Below, piece by piece: positions 6,579-49,400 of a DNA stretch of 64,000 nucleotides; the first letter of the stretch is position 1; each line of letters starts with the position of its first letter. The notes under the pieces are model-generated. The model worked only from the letters and a program-made list of their open reading frames with translations. It was not told the DNA's origin and searched no databases. Source of the stretch: an uncultured Bacilli bacterium. GTDB lineage: Bacteria > Bacillota_I > Bacilli_A > RF39 > UBA660. The stretch covers positions 1-64,000 of the forward strand of contig CANQZC010000003.1 of the NCBI GenBank assembly GCA_947628235.1, read 5' to 3'. The position numbers were made by a program, and so were the translations under genes.

Positions 6579-6609
6579 TAAAAAAGAACCCCGCTTAGTA
6601 GCAGGGTTC
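6578..6609 (-). terminator. Terminator of the Ro gene, overlapping its stop codon
   Basis: Minus-strand stem GAACCCTGC/GCGGGGTTC (9 bp, one U.G) with loop TACTAA that contains the stop codon, followed by TTTTTT. Confidence 0.85.
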
Positions 6610-8079
6610 ATTCTTGTAATATTTACATTGCCAGATCATGTCCTCTAGTTTGCCACCATCTTCCAGGTAAGGAATTAAACTTACCACTTTATCCGTTAGA
6701 CTAGTTAGGAGGTGGACATTCGGATTATTTGGGTTAGCAACTTGTGATTTATAATTGCCAAGATCAAAGGAGTATAGATGGCAAGGACCATATCTCCGGC
6801 AATAGTCATTATATATATCAAGTCCATTGGGATTCCAGCCCCAAAGTGAATGAGTGTCTCCCATAGTTTGCTGATCGCTGACTAAGAGAATGCGGGAGAC
6901 AGGCTGCCGCAACTCTTGAAACGCAGAACTAACACTTGTACCATAATCACAATTATCATTAGCTGCCATCTTGTTAATAAGAGTAAATGGAGATAGCATA
7001 CCAGAATAATGCTGTTCTTTAGCATAGCTACCAAACTTAATGAAGATTGTGTTCTGACGATTCTTTAGATACATAGCTGCCGCATAACAAGCACCAAGTT
7101 GCTTAATAGTCATACGACTATGAGCACTTACTTCACTCTCCATAGAACCACTAACATCTAGCATAATAGCAGTAGTACCAGGTAGTTCTGGCATATTCTG
7201 TACAGAATAAAGAAATGCCTGAGCAAGCGCCGCAAGAATAACAGGTGCCGCATCATTAATATTCAGATAAGCGGTATAAATCTGATAGGGAAATACTAGT
7301 GAGTTTCGTACTGCACCCTCATTAGTAATCTGCGGAATTAGATATTCTTGCACCCAATCAAGATTATAACCTAGTTTATCTGCCGAATCAAGAATGTTGC
7401 GGAGATTGCGCATAAGTGCTAGATAAGCGAGTTTATGTTCTTCTACAAGATTGACCCAGTTAGCTGCCTTTGAAAGATCATCCTCTGCCGCACTAATAGA
7501 AGCACGCCATGTTTCTGCTTCAATGCGTTCATCAGCCTTATAAGCATCAATTACTTTGGAATGTGCATGACAAATATTGATAAGATCATACATATTCCAA
7601 TTCTTCTCTTGGAGCTTATAACGACTAAGCGTATAGCGATCCATACTAGATAGATAATCTCCTGCTCCACGGATAAGAGCATGAGATCGTTTCTGCGGAA
7701 GCGTTGTCTCAAGAATTGCAAAGATCTCCGCAATATCATCAGGACGATGGATAAAATAATTATAATATCCACGCTTTTCCGCAAATGTTTTATTATTTAA
7801 ATAGGCTGCAACCAGTTGTGCGGCTGACCGCATTCCTAGTTCGTTCCTAGCAAATACAGATGCCTTAGCTAGAAACTCTGGGCCAAGGCTATCATATATA
7901 CGATCGGTCAGGTCAATAAATCGTTCAGTCTGCGTTCCCGCATTCTCATAAAAGCCACCTTCTAAATAAGAGGAAAAAAGAAAATTCATCCAATCCTCTA
8001 CTAGCGACTTCTCATATTGCCACGCGTCTTCGTAACTTTTTGCCTTTTGAGGGGAAACCGTTTGATTAAACTTTGACAT
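6595..8079 (-). CDS. rsr: Ro60/Rsr ortholog: TROVE domain plus von Willebrand A domain
   Basis: 494 residues, near the usual 520-540 of Ro60 proteins. Residues 1-295 form the TROVE HEAT-repeat ring, with conserved segments such as LAKASVFARNELGMRSAAQLVAAYL split around residues 69-93 and GAGDYLSSMDRYTLSRYKL around 138-156. Residues 300-494 form a vWA domain with an intact MIDAS: DVSGS (308-312), Thr381 in YGTSV, and Asp402 in LLVSDQQT. Ro proteins bind misfolded RNA in the ring and Y RNA on its rim; in bacteria they act with exoribonucleases in RNA degradation and stress survival. Start ATG follows GAAAGGTTAAGTTAAT. Immediately upstream in the same transcript lie three Y-RNA-like modules. Confidence 0.93.
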   Translation of the reverse strand: MSKFNQTVSPQKAKSYEDAWQYEKSLVEDWMNFLFSSYLEGGFYENAGTQTERFIDLTDRIYDSLGPEFLAKASVFARNELGMRSAAQLVAAYLNNKTFAEKRGYYNYFIHRPDDIAEIFAILETTLPQKRSHALIRGAGDYLSSMDRYTLSRYKLQEKNWNMYDLINICHAHSKVIDAYKADERIEAETWRASISAAEDDLSKAANWVNLVEEHKLAYLALMRNLRNILDSADKLGYNLDWVQEYLIPQITNEGAVRNSLVFPYQIYTAYLNINDAAPVILAALAQAFLYSVQNMPELPGTTAIMLDVSGSMESEVSAHSRMTIKQLGACYAAAMYLKNRQNTIFIKFGSYAKEQHYSGMLSPFTLINKMAANDNCDYGTSVSSAFQELRQPVSRILLVSDQQTMGDTHSLWGWNPNGLDIYNDYCRRYGPCHLYSFDLGNYKSQVANPNNPNVHLLTSLTDKVVSLIPYLEDGGKLEDMIWQCKYYKNEPCY

Positions 8080-9145: not shown

Positions 9146-10075
9146 TCACAGACCAATAAAATCTCGTGCGGCCTGTTGAGTAAGTTTCCGCAACAGACCA
9201 AAATTAATAGTCGGCATCTTAAAACGTTTAAGAATTGCCTTCATCTCATCGAGAATACAACCATCAAAAACCTCGTTAAGATAGAAACCAATGCAACGAT
9301 GATCTGTAATATTAAACTCATCTAGTTCAAAATAAAGAGTTGTCTTTGCAACCGCTTTACCAAGTTCTGCGTTAGTAACAAACTCTGCTACAATCGCCGC
9401 TTCAACGTCAGTTTCCGCAACTTTAACACGAGGCTTTGGTTTGGACTCTTGGAGAACATACTTACCAATAACATAGTGTCCATATTTATTAATGAACTCT
9501 GGATTACGAATAACTACACCCTCACCAACTTGATCTTGTTGCACCATCAAGAAATGATTATCTTGTGCTAACCGCAGAATATCTTCATTGGTTGGGTTTT
9601 CCATAATAGTATTAGGGATATGCCATTGAGAAAGAGAATATTCATTTAGATATTTCTCAATCTCGTCTGGATGTAGATATTTATTTTCATCCAGATCAAA
9701 GATGTCAAAAATCCATAGAGCTTTCAAAGCACTAGGATCATATGTCTTAATATGACCAACGAATTTGGTGGAACCAAGCCACTCACCAAACACTTGAAAA
9801 TTTGGATGATCAGCCAAGAGACAAGCAATGAAAGAAGCCTCTCCGCTTTCATCAACAGTATCATAAAACCAATTAGCAAAGCCCGCATTGTCGTCCTCTG
9901 GTGTGAGGACTCGTTTGCGGCTGCCGCATACTAGTTCATTAGTATCTTTATCATAATATATACTAGCGTTAGTACCATCAAGTTTAGGAGAGATATAACA
10001 TTTTCCCTCTAGGATACCTTCCGCATCCGGAGTATTAAGTCTCTCTACATGTGTAAAAACATGATAATCTGTCAT
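9146..10075 (-). CDS. RNA ligase, T4 Rnl2-like
   Basis: 309 residues. Nucleotidyltransferase motifs in order: I KLDGTNA (Lys31 is the predicted AMP-accepting residue), Ia SRKR (52-55), III QVFGEW (94-99), IIIa WIFDIFD (121-127), IV EGVVIR (185-190), V GKYVLQES (Lys205). The size and the C-terminal helical domain fit the Rnl2 family, which seals 3'-OH/5'-phosphate nicks in duplex RNA, for example cleaved tRNA anticodon loops. No polynucleotide kinase gene is seen in the window. It lies near the Ro/Y-RNA unit and the tRNA cluster, which favours RNA repair. It has no clear strong ribosome site of its own; the start ATG is the first in frame. Confidence 0.9.
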   Translation of the reverse strand: MTDYHVFTHVERLNTPDAEGILEGKCYISPKLDGTNASIYYDKDTNELVCGSRKRVLTPEDDNAGFANWFYDTVDESGEASFIACLLADHPNFQVFGEWLGSTKFVGHIKTYDPSALKALWIFDIFDLDENKYLHPDEIEKYLNEYSLSQWHIPNTIMENPTNEDILRLAQDNHFLMVQQDQVGEGVVIRNPEFINKYGHYVIGKYVLQESKPKPRVKVAETDVEAAIVAEFVTNAELGKAVAKTTLYFELDEFNITDHRCIGFYLNEVFDGCILDEMKAILKRFKMPTINFGLLRKLTQQAARDFIGL

Positions 10076-24208: not shown

Positions 24209-24768
24209 TGTTTTTCCTTTCTCTATTGGATGATTATAGATTATCATCTTTGTTAGTTTTTGTCAAGAACTTTTTTTATTTTATTTTGTAAGATTTTTTA
24301 ATGGCCGTAATTCACAGGATTTTCTATTATAGCGTGATTAACAGAATAATGCAATATATATTAGTAGACAAATGTTACTCATGAATATATGTTCACGTGT
24401 CCAAATGAACATATGAACAGACGTTCATAAGTACAAATGTTCGTTTGTCAACCGTGGCTTACTTTACAAACAAATGTTCGATAGAACAAATGTTCGTTTG
24501 TTTACCATAATTAACAGTTCGTACAAATGTTCTGTTGTTAACCGTAGTTAACTATGACCGCATTACTCAAAGTTAACTATAGTTTACTTTCTCCTTTCTA
24601 GCCTATTCCCATACGGTACCCATGTTACTACGCAATTGTGGAGATTGGGTAACGGGAAGGTAACGGCGCTAGTTTCTCGTCGGTTTCGTGCCTTGTGCGT
24701 GCTAATATACATAGTGTCAGAAACGACAAGGGACGTTGATATAACGGAATAGAGAGGGAGTGTTTCAC
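24209..24768. other. 560-bp noncoding control region upstream of parS
   Basis: From left to right: a leftward promoter (TTGACA at plus 24256-24261), then the ACAAATGTTC/G-type box cluster (24361-24535), GTTAACC palindromes at 24448-24465, 24500-24515, 24537-24553 and 24571-24588, direct repeats GGTAACGG (about 24646 and 24657), and the parS palindrome. No gene on either strand is supported. Confidence 0.65.
24361..24535. promoter_or_regulatory. Cluster of GAAC/GTTC operator-like boxes
   Basis: GAACAGACGTTC (24415-24426) and GAACAAATGTTC (24484-24495) fit GAAC-N4-GTTC, the core of the Gram-positive LexA (DinR) box. ACAAATGTTC occurs five times or nearly so (about 24367, 24432, 24470, 24486, 24522). 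ATATGTTC...GAACATAT makes a wider palindrome at 24387-24414. Could be bound by host LexA or a phage repressor. Confidence 0.65.
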
Positions 24769-24776
24769 GTGAAACA
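24761..24776. promoter_or_regulatory. Perfect parS site
   Basis: TGTTTCACGTGAAACA, the exact 16-bp palindrome bound by chromosomal ParB/Spo0J. It lies between the ribosome site GGGAG and the GTG (24769) of the first gene of a GC-rich island and overlaps that start codon, so ParB binding could also block this gene. Confidence 0.85.
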
Positions 24777-25134
24777 ACTTGGAAGCATCACCGTTAAAGC
24801 AACTAACGGAAGCATTACCGCACAAGTTGTGGCGATCAGTGGTGAGGGCGTGGCCTTGGACGTGCAAGCCCATGTAAACGGATACGGCGCGGGAGGTTTC
24901 CACCGTGTCGAATTGGTACCGATTGAAGCAACCGCCGCAGAGTTGGCCGTTAGTGTTGGTACAATAGATAGTAGTGATATATGGGACGCACTCGCAAGCA
25001 TCGAACGCGCCGCCCTTGGTAAGATGAGACAAGCCGCGCAAGCCGCGCAAGTGCTCCGCAGTCAGGCGTTGACCGCCATAGTCCGAGAGTTTGGCAAGTG
25101 CTCCCGAGCATGCCCATGCTATAACGTCTTGTAA
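24769..25134 (+). CDS. Uncharacterised protein of the GC-rich island, gene 1 (121 aa)
   Basis: GTG 24769 has GGGAG 8 nt upstream; an alternative GTG at 24760 would place parS inside the gene. Beta-rich N-terminus (KQLGSITVKATNGSITAQVV) then an Ala-rich helical C-terminus (IERAALGKMRQAAQAAQVLR) ending CSRACPCYNVL. Codons are strongly GC-rich, unlike the phage body. No family recognised. The start codon lies in the parS palindrome. Confidence 0.65.
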   Translation: MKQLGSITVKATNGSITAQVVAISGEGVALDVQAHVNGYGAGGFHRVELVPIEATAAELAVSVGTIDSSDIWDALASIERAALGKMRQAAQAAQVLRSQALTAIVREFGKCSRACPCYNVL

Positions 25135-25189
25135 TAACCCATAGGAAACGCGCCCACTATTCCAACTTGAAACTAAAGGAGTTTCAGCC

Positions 25190-25582
25190 ATGATTAAGAC
25201 GATCAAAAACAGCGACGGAATTATCACCCTTGGCATCCTCGCAGTTCGCGAAGATCCCCACTCGCTCCCCTCGCAAATGCTCCGTGTTCATGCTGAAATT
25301 ATTATGAACGATACACTAGCCGCCTTGTACTTGGTGGCCGATAATGGAGCCATGAAACGCGCCGCCGCGTTTCTCACCGATGAAATGACGGAAGCGGAAA
25401 CGTTCGACCGGCTCGCCCGATATTGTAAACCGGAGTGTATCGCCCATCACTTGGAAGCATGGGCGGAAGCTGACCCGTATCGCGTCGATTGGGCAACGTG
25501 TGACGGATGCAATCAGGCCGCCGCCGCGCTCCGAGCTGAAGCGGACGCGCTAGAGCTCCAACGTTTCGCCCGCATTGCTTAA
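25190..25582 (+). CDS. Uncharacterised protein of the GC-rich island, gene 2 (130 aa)
   Basis: ATG after AAAGGAGTTTCAGCC. Helical and Ala-rich, with CKPEC (about 80-86) and CDGC (about 105-108) that could bind a metal. GC-rich codons as in gene 1. Terminator follows. Unknown function; probably acquired with gene 1. Confidence 0.7.
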   Translation: MIKTIKNSDGIITLGILAVREDPHSLPSQMLRVHAEIIMNDTLAALYLVADNGAMKRAAAFLTDEMTEAETFDRLARYCKPECIAHHLEAWAEADPYRVDWATCDGCNQAAAALRAEADALELQRFARIA

Positions 25583-25598
25583 GCTATAGGCCATGGAA

Positions 25599-25642
25599 TC
25601 CCCGCCCACTGAAGGGAGAAAAAACGTGAGCGGGGTACTTTT
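25599..25642 (+). terminator. Terminator of the GC-rich island
   Basis: CCCCGCCCAC and GTGAGCGGGG arms enclosing about 17 nt, followed by TACTTTT. Confidence 0.75.
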
Positions 25643-25721
25643 AGGAATTGCGCGAGGCTACGAAAAAAATTGTGTTCGCTCTCGACAAACACACGTTCAT
25701 ACCATTTTTCTAAAACCGTAA

Positions 25722-46431: not shown

Positions 46432-49400
46432 GTGGCGAAGTATAGCTCAACAATACAGTATAATATTAAGACTAACTTAGATGCGGGAGGTTTCTCGCAA
46501 TTATTAAGTCAGGTCGAAGCTGTTGATAGTGCATTGACTAGATTAGCTTCTAAGCAAATCATTCCACAAAGTCAAATTGACAGTGCAAAACAACAAGTAG
46601 CTACATTAAGTACCGCACTATCCAGATCATACGACTCTGCCTTTAAAACTATAAATTCTGGTAAGTTTTTTAATATTTTAGAGAATGGTAATACTACATT
46701 ATCTAAACTTTCTCAAAGTTTTTCTTTAGTTGGGGCTAAGGGACAAGTAGCATTTAACAACGTCGTTGGTTCTTTGAGTAAATTAGATACTAGATTAAAT
46801 TCTACTAGTAAAACTACAGAAAAAATTTTTAACACTATTGGAAATACAGTTCGATGGGGTGTAATTGCAAGTGTATTCCAAGAGGTAATGAATGGTATCC
46901 ATGGCGCTGTAACCTATATGCAAGATTTAGATAGATCATTAACTGATATTATGTTAGTTAGTGATTATACTAAAGACGATATGCGGGAGTTTGCTCAATA
47001 TGCAAATGAAGCCGCCGCGTCATTAGGTAATACAACAACAGCGTATACAGATGCTGCTATGATTTTCGCACAACAGGGTTATGATCTTGAGAATCAGAAG
47101 AAGTTAGCAGATATAACCTTAAAAGTTTCTAATGTTACAGGACAAGAAGCATCGAAAGTATCTGAAGAATTAACATCTATTATTAATGGTTATCAATTAA
47201 CCGTGGATGATCTTTCTACTTCAATGGATCAAATTGCTAAGATTGCTAATATTTCTGCGGCTGACGTAGAAGAATTAGCAGTTGCTGCATCTCGTGTAGC
47301 AGCTACAGCTAATACTCTTGGTGTAGATCAAGCACAGCTATATTCACAAATTGGTACAATCGTATCTGTTACTCGTGAAGCACCAGAAGTCGTAGGTAAC
47401 GCTCTTAAAACTATCTATGCTCGTTTGGGCGATCTTAAACTTGGTGAAAGTCTTGAAGATGGTACTACTCTTGGTAGCTTTTCTGGAGCACTTGAAAAAA
47501 TTGGTGTTCATGTTATGGATGCCAATGGTGATCTCCGTGAAATGGGTAGTATTGTTGAAGATTTAATGGTACGTTGGCGTGATCTTGATGAAGCTGAAAA
47601 ACAAGCTACCGTAGTAACTCTTGCTGGTAAGTTCCAATCTAACCGTTTGATGACCTTAATGGAAAATCAAGATATGTATTATGATTATTTGGAACAAGCA
47701 GAAAATGAATCTCTTGGCACATTAGATACAATGGAATCAGAACATCTTGATTCTCTTGCTGGAAAAGGCGCTAAGCTACAAGCAACCTTTGAAGGATTAT
47801 TAACTAGTTTATTTAACCAAGATGATTTTGGTCCAGTATTAGATGGATTAACTGGTTTATTAGGATTAATTCAGAATCTAGTATCAGCAGTTGGTGGCGG
47901 TACACCAATTATTACTGCTTTTGGTGCAGCACTTACAAAAGCATTTAGTGCTAATATCGCTCGTAGTATTGCTAACTTTACAGGGAATAGAACTTCTGGT
48001 ATTTTAGCAGAACAAAATGCGGCTGATAGTAAACAAAAATTAGCAGAATATGCGGGTACCCTTGGTTCTGATACAGAAACTAGCAAAACAATTCAAGCTA
48101 TTGATTCTGTTCTTGGTAACCGTGCTAGTATGAATAACAAACAAATTCAACAATGGAATACTTTGGTCGATAGTTTAGTTGCTTCTACTAATGATGCGGT
48201 TCGCGCACAAGAAGCATATAACTCAGAAGTAAAGCGTACTATTGAATTATATGCGGCGGCTCAACGCGAATCTACAGACACTATTAAACAACGTTATGAA
48301 GAAAAAGGATTAAAAGATGTTGGCAAAGTTGTTACTAGTGAGGCCGCCAAAAAAAATATCGCTACTTCTGTTGTAGAGAACGAAGAACAAGTTAAGTTAA
48401 TTAAGACTATTCAAGGTAGCAGTGCTGCCATTGAACAGTATCAAGCAAATCTTGGTACGTTGAGAGAGACATATCAAAGTCTCGCGGCAGAAGGCCAAAT
48501 TAGTGCAGAGGCTAATAGCAAATTACAAGAATCTATTTTAGCTCTTGAAAATGCTGCATTAGAAGGTACTACAAGTGTAGACCAGTTAGAAGAACAACTT
48601 CTTCAATTAGCTCAAGCTACATTAAGAGATAGGGAACTTTTATTAGAAGAGGCTAGTAATCCTAATAGAGCTCGCACTACAAACGAGTCTATGGATCAAG
48701 CTAGAGAACGTCAATTAAGTACACAGCAGATGGCTGAAGGTAGCGGAGAAAATGTACAACAATATGCTGAAAGTATTGATAAACAAGTACAATATCAAAA
48801 CATTATAGAAATAGTAGCCGCAGTAGGCCAATTAGCATTTGCGTGGCAGTCATTTCAATCATTAGGTTCGTTATGGGCTAATGCTGATATGGATACCGGT
48901 GAAAAATTACAACAAACAATACTAAATTTAAGTATGACTGTTCCGATGTTAGTTATGTCATTAAGTCAATTAAATAAAACTAAACTAACCGTTGGTCTAG
49001 TAAGTGGATTAACTACTCTTTCAGCAGAGATGAAAAGCTATGCTTCTAGAACCGCTCCAGCTGTAATTAGTTCATCCAATATTATCGCTCAACGTTTCAC
49101 GACTATGGGCGGAGCAGCTTCTCGTTCTGCTGCAGCTATGGGATTTCTATCGAATGCCGCGAGAGTAGGTTCTGTTGCTATATCAGGACTAAGTAAAGTC
49201 ATTGGCGCTTTGGGTGGTCCTATTGGTGTTGCTATGTTAGCATTAACCGCTATTTCTACGGTTATTAGTGGGGTGACAACTGCAGCAGAAGAAGCTCAAC
49301 GTAAAATTGTTGAAGATGCTCAAGAAACTCAAGAAAAGGCTCAAACTAATTTAGATTCTATTGATAATTGGGATCAATTATATCAAAAATATCGCCAAAC

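Follow-up and report, generated by a model that had tools for sequence, protein, structure and literature searches.

A perfect host-type parS at a gene start in a large Bacilli phage: candidate recruitment of host ParB and recurrence in unrelated phages

Introduction

What does a perfect host-type parS do on a phage contig that encodes no ParB, and which protein would bind it? To our knowledge, the use of host ParB by a phage has been argued experimentally for phi29 only. The genome of this virulent phage is reported to be entrapped in spores in a Spo0J-dependent manner, with the lytic cycle arrested by Spo0A (PMC9437464, citing Meijer et al. 2005). A full-text search, with preprints and most subscription papers outside its scope, found no literature on orphan parS across phages.

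Results

A perfect parS overlaps the start of an orphan gene

The window, meaning the whole 64,000-nucleotide stretch of DNA analysed, covers bases 1-64000 of a contig 113,259 bp long, which was binned into the 1.6-Mb metagenome-assembled genome (MAG) of an uncultured gut Bacilli bacterium. At 24761-24776 it contains the perfect 16-bp palindrome TGTTTCACGTGAAACA, and all 16/16 bases agree with the host-type ParB/Spo0J consensus, as an earlier reading made without database searches (hereafter the sequence-only reading) had stated. The number of exact parS sites expected in the window is 2.4e-5, 1.6e-5 and 1.1e-5 under order-0, order-1 and order-2 Markov models, respectively. These values, about 1-2e-5, agree with the same reading's estimate of a chance far below one in a thousand per 64 kb. 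The parS match is genuine and lies well beyond chance expectation. The features of the locus are as follows.

24415..24553, no strand assigned: AT-rich repeats upstream of the island, comprising four copies of ACAAATGTTCG and two GAACN4GTTC motifs
24600..25690, plus strand: GC-rich foreign island with parS, P0001 and P0002
24753..24760, plus strand: ribosome-binding-like AGAGGGAG, directly abutting parS, recognised by its sequence
24761..24776, no strand assigned: parS palindrome TGTTTCACGTGAAACA, 16/16 consensus match
24769..25134, plus strand: orphan ORF P0001, 121 aa, with its GTG start inside parS
25190..25582, plus strand: orphan ORF P0002, 130 aa, second ORF of the island

Five perfect 16-bp palindromes occur in the window, one of which is parS. 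A search of the genome for other parS sites, as had been proposed, gave no second exact copy in the 1.6-Mb assembly but a near-perfect pair on a host contig (see below). The rest of the 113-kb contig has no further site at ≤2 mismatches, and the sole other site within 3 mismatches, at position 47367 with 3 mismatches, is at chance level. Noc-type sites are likewise absent at ≤2 mismatches.

The site had been placed between a ribosome site and a GTG. It does abut AGAGGGAG, but the likely P0001 start, the GTG at 24769-24771, lies within the palindrome itself, 8 nt after AGAGGGAG; a second GTG in the same frame, at 24760, overlaps as well, though it lies too near the ribosome site. Homologues of P0001 were found neither in phages and plasmids nor in 193 genomes of the host family and the genome contigs, and P0002 has none in phages or plasmids. 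The sole viral-contig match to P0001 was judged spurious (36 matching residues on a GC-rich contig of unrelated content). A ferritin identity was rejected after a PDB sequence search that gave weak matches only (E ~0.08), and the AlphaFold model of P0001 alone was unusable (pLDDT 54.6).

The phage contig has no detectable par genes and the host carries ParAB and near-perfect parS

The contig encodes a YonF-type large terminase, a portal and virion structural proteins, together with DNA polymerase III alpha, DnaB, RecJ, ligase and GyrB for replication. The contig also carries tRNA genes and genes for TROVE/Ro60 and RNA ligase, and its relatives include large phages that infect Gram-positive hosts, such as Geobacillus E3, Enterococcus EF1 and Lactococcus 949. 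The window, as part of this longer contig, does not represent a complete phage. Neither ParB_N (PF02195) nor ParA/AAA_31 (PF13614) matches the 113-kb contig, which may be incomplete; both match other contigs of the assembly only. A plasmid-prophage setting, raised in the sequence-only reading, finds no positive support, as the contig has its own replication genes and neither par genes nor a tyrosine integrase.

In the rest of the genome, where that reading had proposed to look for parA and parB, both genes are present and adjacent on host contig C22. Among the matches listed, the closest ParB homologues are 64-88% identical and derive mostly from uncultured Bacilli MAGs, many of which belong to the 'Lapin' series (rabbit, by name). 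Host contig C7 holds a parS-like pair, TGTTTCAtGTGAAACA and TGTTTCACaTGAAACt, with one and two mismatches, respectively, between gyrA and tadA/dnaX (gene names from reading translations), and perfect parS copies are present in relatives within the host family. The host ParB therefore probably uses the parS motif. Spo0A is also present (Spo0A_C, 136.9 bits), and sporulation was judged by Spo0A alone. The host assignment itself is based on binning and on family-level relatives of the phage: terminase matches in six other genomes of the host family, some of them weak, support it but do not prove it.

Orphan parS recurs in unrelated phages

Exact parS is found in at least 120 stretches of IMG/VR, compared to 1, 54 and 9 stretches for three composition-matched control palindromes in full IMG/VR scans. 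Requiring GGAG at most 4 nt upstream of parS still leaves 79 stretches. Viral contigs were sampled in the order of the scan, gene calls follow a simple longest-ORF heuristic, and some IMG/VR contigs could be host DNA. Counting the first site of each locus, 44 of 107 parS sites (41%) are intergenic versus 0 of 52 control sites (p 7e-10), with random positions being intergenic in 8.3% of cases. Two or more sites occur at 17/120 parS loci versus 0/54 control loci, and a single copy is the commonest state (103/120). By a cautious figure, ParB_N gives no match in 25 of the 30 long parS records (26 of 30 strictly by record); four of the others match above or close to the cut-off and one weakly. The matches listed are in G288 (below the cut-off), G291, G298 and G308, and one of the 20 control records, G319, also has a match.

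Among annotated phages, the parS query matches 401 records versus 9 for the control query; because these include short and imperfect matches, they are not a tally of perfect sites. Bacillus phage vB_BcoS-136 (MH884508) has four perfect parS in two intergenic regions. Perfect sites were also read directly in Lactobacillus phage Lpa804, Enterococcus phage Revolver, Butyrivibrio virus Arian, Hungatella phage CH17P1 and the microvirus phi-CA82, and a 5.9-kb inovirus (PQ006135.1, locus L407) carries six, mostly between genes. Among phi29 relatives, the parS of B103 deviates at one base, and PZA has a parS-like match. The records 'Listeria phage LM 4-11-1 / LM 4-14-1' were set aside, as they consist of many unannotated fragments and may be contaminated; further Listeria matches observed span 19 bp with 94.7% identity, close to the E-value limit.

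Recruitment of host ParB is the best reading

Since the phage carries a host-type parS and no ParB, it most likely recruits the ParB of its host. We hold with moderate confidence that the palindrome is a functional parS acting in positioning or segregation of the phage genome. That the phage may hitch to host ParB was among the original suggestions, and it emerges as the best reading on indirect evidence: neither ParB_N nor ParA was found on the phage contig, the host has ParAB and near-identical parS, and orphan parS is strongly enriched in unrelated phages, often in intergenic DNA.

From parS, where it loads, ParB spreads in the form of a CTP clamp (PMC12704722). Host ParB of the Spo0J type would accordingly be expected to load at the phage site in this form and slide into the adjoining phage DNA, and the ParA/SMC machinery might then handle the phage genome as it does the origin region of the host. 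The phage would probably benefit by having its genome positioned and inherited during delayed lysis, which in a Spo0A-bearing host could include capture of the phage genome in the forespore. As a secondary effect, ParB may lower transcription of P0001, which begins inside parS. ParB binding, positioning and benefit to the phage are all predicted steps.

The closest parallel in kind is phi29 with B103 and PZA, where a phage reportedly uses host ParB/Spo0J (here a prediction) in a Spo0A-bearing host. phi29 is a small podovirus with reported Spo0A control sites, whereas the phage described here is a large siphovirus-type whose single perfect parS marks the start of a gene within an acquired island. 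The exact long Spo0A box TTTGTCGAA occurs 0 times in the 64-kb window, so phi29-style Spo0A control is not supported. With the chromosomal Spo0J sites of Bacilli, the phage site shares all 16 consensus bases, and near-identical copies next to gyrA/dnaX accompany ParAB in the host; unlike those sites, it is phage-borne and distant from oriC and parAB. Phage vB_BcoS-136 is also large and terminase-related, with perfect parS beside small genes, but its four sites are clustered in intergenic DNA. Plasmid prophages of the P1, N15 and mycobacteriophage type similarly have a centromere site in use, but each brings its own ParA/ParB together with a parS of its own, in contrast to the 113-kb contig, on which no par genes were found.

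Alternative roles of the site

The overlap of parS with the GTG of P0001 would also fit a ParB-dependent switch, in which host ParB occupying the gene start would obstruct RNA polymerase, and P0001 would stay off until ParB is diluted by the replicated phage copies. In some bacteria, genes close to parS are described as being silenced by ParB (PMC7022226), and the same order of ribosome-binding site, parS and GTG is found in other viral contigs, including at a gp16-type packaging ATPase gene. This layout is in the minority, however: of the 292 oriented sites at the first 120 loci, 13 show it (GTG frame of at least 60 aa plus a short upstream frame). Most intergenic parS of other phages have no start-codon overlap, and P0001 has no known function. 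We regard such a switch as rather unlikely.

Titration is a further candidate: the site could act as a decoy that sequesters or misdirects host ParB/SMC, disturbing host segregation or division to the advantage of the phage. The occurrence of sites in seemingly virulent phages (Lactobacillus Herelleviridae and phi29 relatives) and of many copies in an inovirus would agree with this. One 16-bp site per genome is nonetheless a weak sponge before replication, and one copy is what 103 of the 120 loci have; filamentous phages, which usually do not kill their host, carry sites too. A decoy function appears quite unlikely.

The island that holds the site raises another question, namely whether parS came along as part of it, from some chromosome or other element, and does nothing for the phage. 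About 1 kb long with a GC content of ~0.42-0.62 per 100 bp, the island has a GC3 of 0.53-0.59 versus 0.21-0.24 for core phage genes, and no homologues were found for its genes. The nearest syntenic phage, a partial contig (G109:C4) whose terminase is 72-78% identical over two segments, matches the window at 18.5-23.2 kb and again from 27.6 kb. The region between is variable and has no parS in that phage, which has no site at ≤2 mismatches; the same holds for almost all of the further terminase relatives analysed, whether whole or partial. The sequence-only reading had made conservation of the palindrome in relatives a test of its proposal; in the nearest relatives parS is not conserved, because the entire island is absent there. 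Missing from nearly all terminase relatives analysed, parS is therefore dispensable in this clade, and the recurrence of orphan parS is convergent rather than clade-wide. Composition and absence from relatives thus favour a passenger, but the palindrome is intact and the same site is strongly enriched in intergenic DNA of unrelated phages, making a passenger origin without function improbable.

Finally, an RNA hairpin that hides the GTG start and matches parS by accident is highly improbable: the stem does fold over the start (MFE -13.6, z -1.78, 11/200 shuffles as good), but all 16 parS bases would arise by chance at ~1e-5, a hairpin would not require exactly these letters, and the same 16-mer lies between genes in other phages.

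Breadth of orphan parS

Phage use of host ParB has a reported precedent in phi29, and the interesting part is the breadth of orphan parS in unrelated phages. We tentatively propose, as possible rather than probable, that centromere mimicry is a general convergent phage strategy: tailed dsDNA phages, ssDNA microviruses and filamentous inoviruses whose hosts have ParABS would independently carry orphan parS of the host consensus, sometimes fused to a start codon, with host ParB sorting the genome and gating the gene. Phages may commonly borrow the chromosome-sorting machinery of their hosts. If orphan parS is as frequent as the survey suggests, it becomes possible to test directly how non-integrating phages persist, how they enter spores and where they reside in the cell, and ParB/SMC turn into phage-facing host factors.

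Further features of the phage contig

The AT-rich repeats upstream of the island are possible operators or iterons. The two GAACN4GTTC motifs among them (24415-24426 and 24484-24495) are LexA/DinR-like and lie within 80 bp upstream of the island; the window contains five such motifs versus 0.46 expected. Near-identical 14-mers, AACA(G/C)ACGTTCATA, are found on both sides of the island (24416-24429 and 25688-25701) and may be an insertion trace or due to chance.

Elsewhere in the window, the genes for TROVE/Ro60 and RNA ligase (6595-8079 and 9146-10075, both on the minus strand) lie near five tRNA genes and resemble an RNA-repair module. In the nearest syntenic phage, the terminase gene (L319:12100-14753) is interrupted by ~0.9 kb, possibly an intron or homing element. 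Related terminases contain in-frame stops, with 12 TAG in L308 (G275:C1) and 7 stops in L157 in the frame tried, which suggests that stop codons are reassigned among these phages, as in Phass-1.
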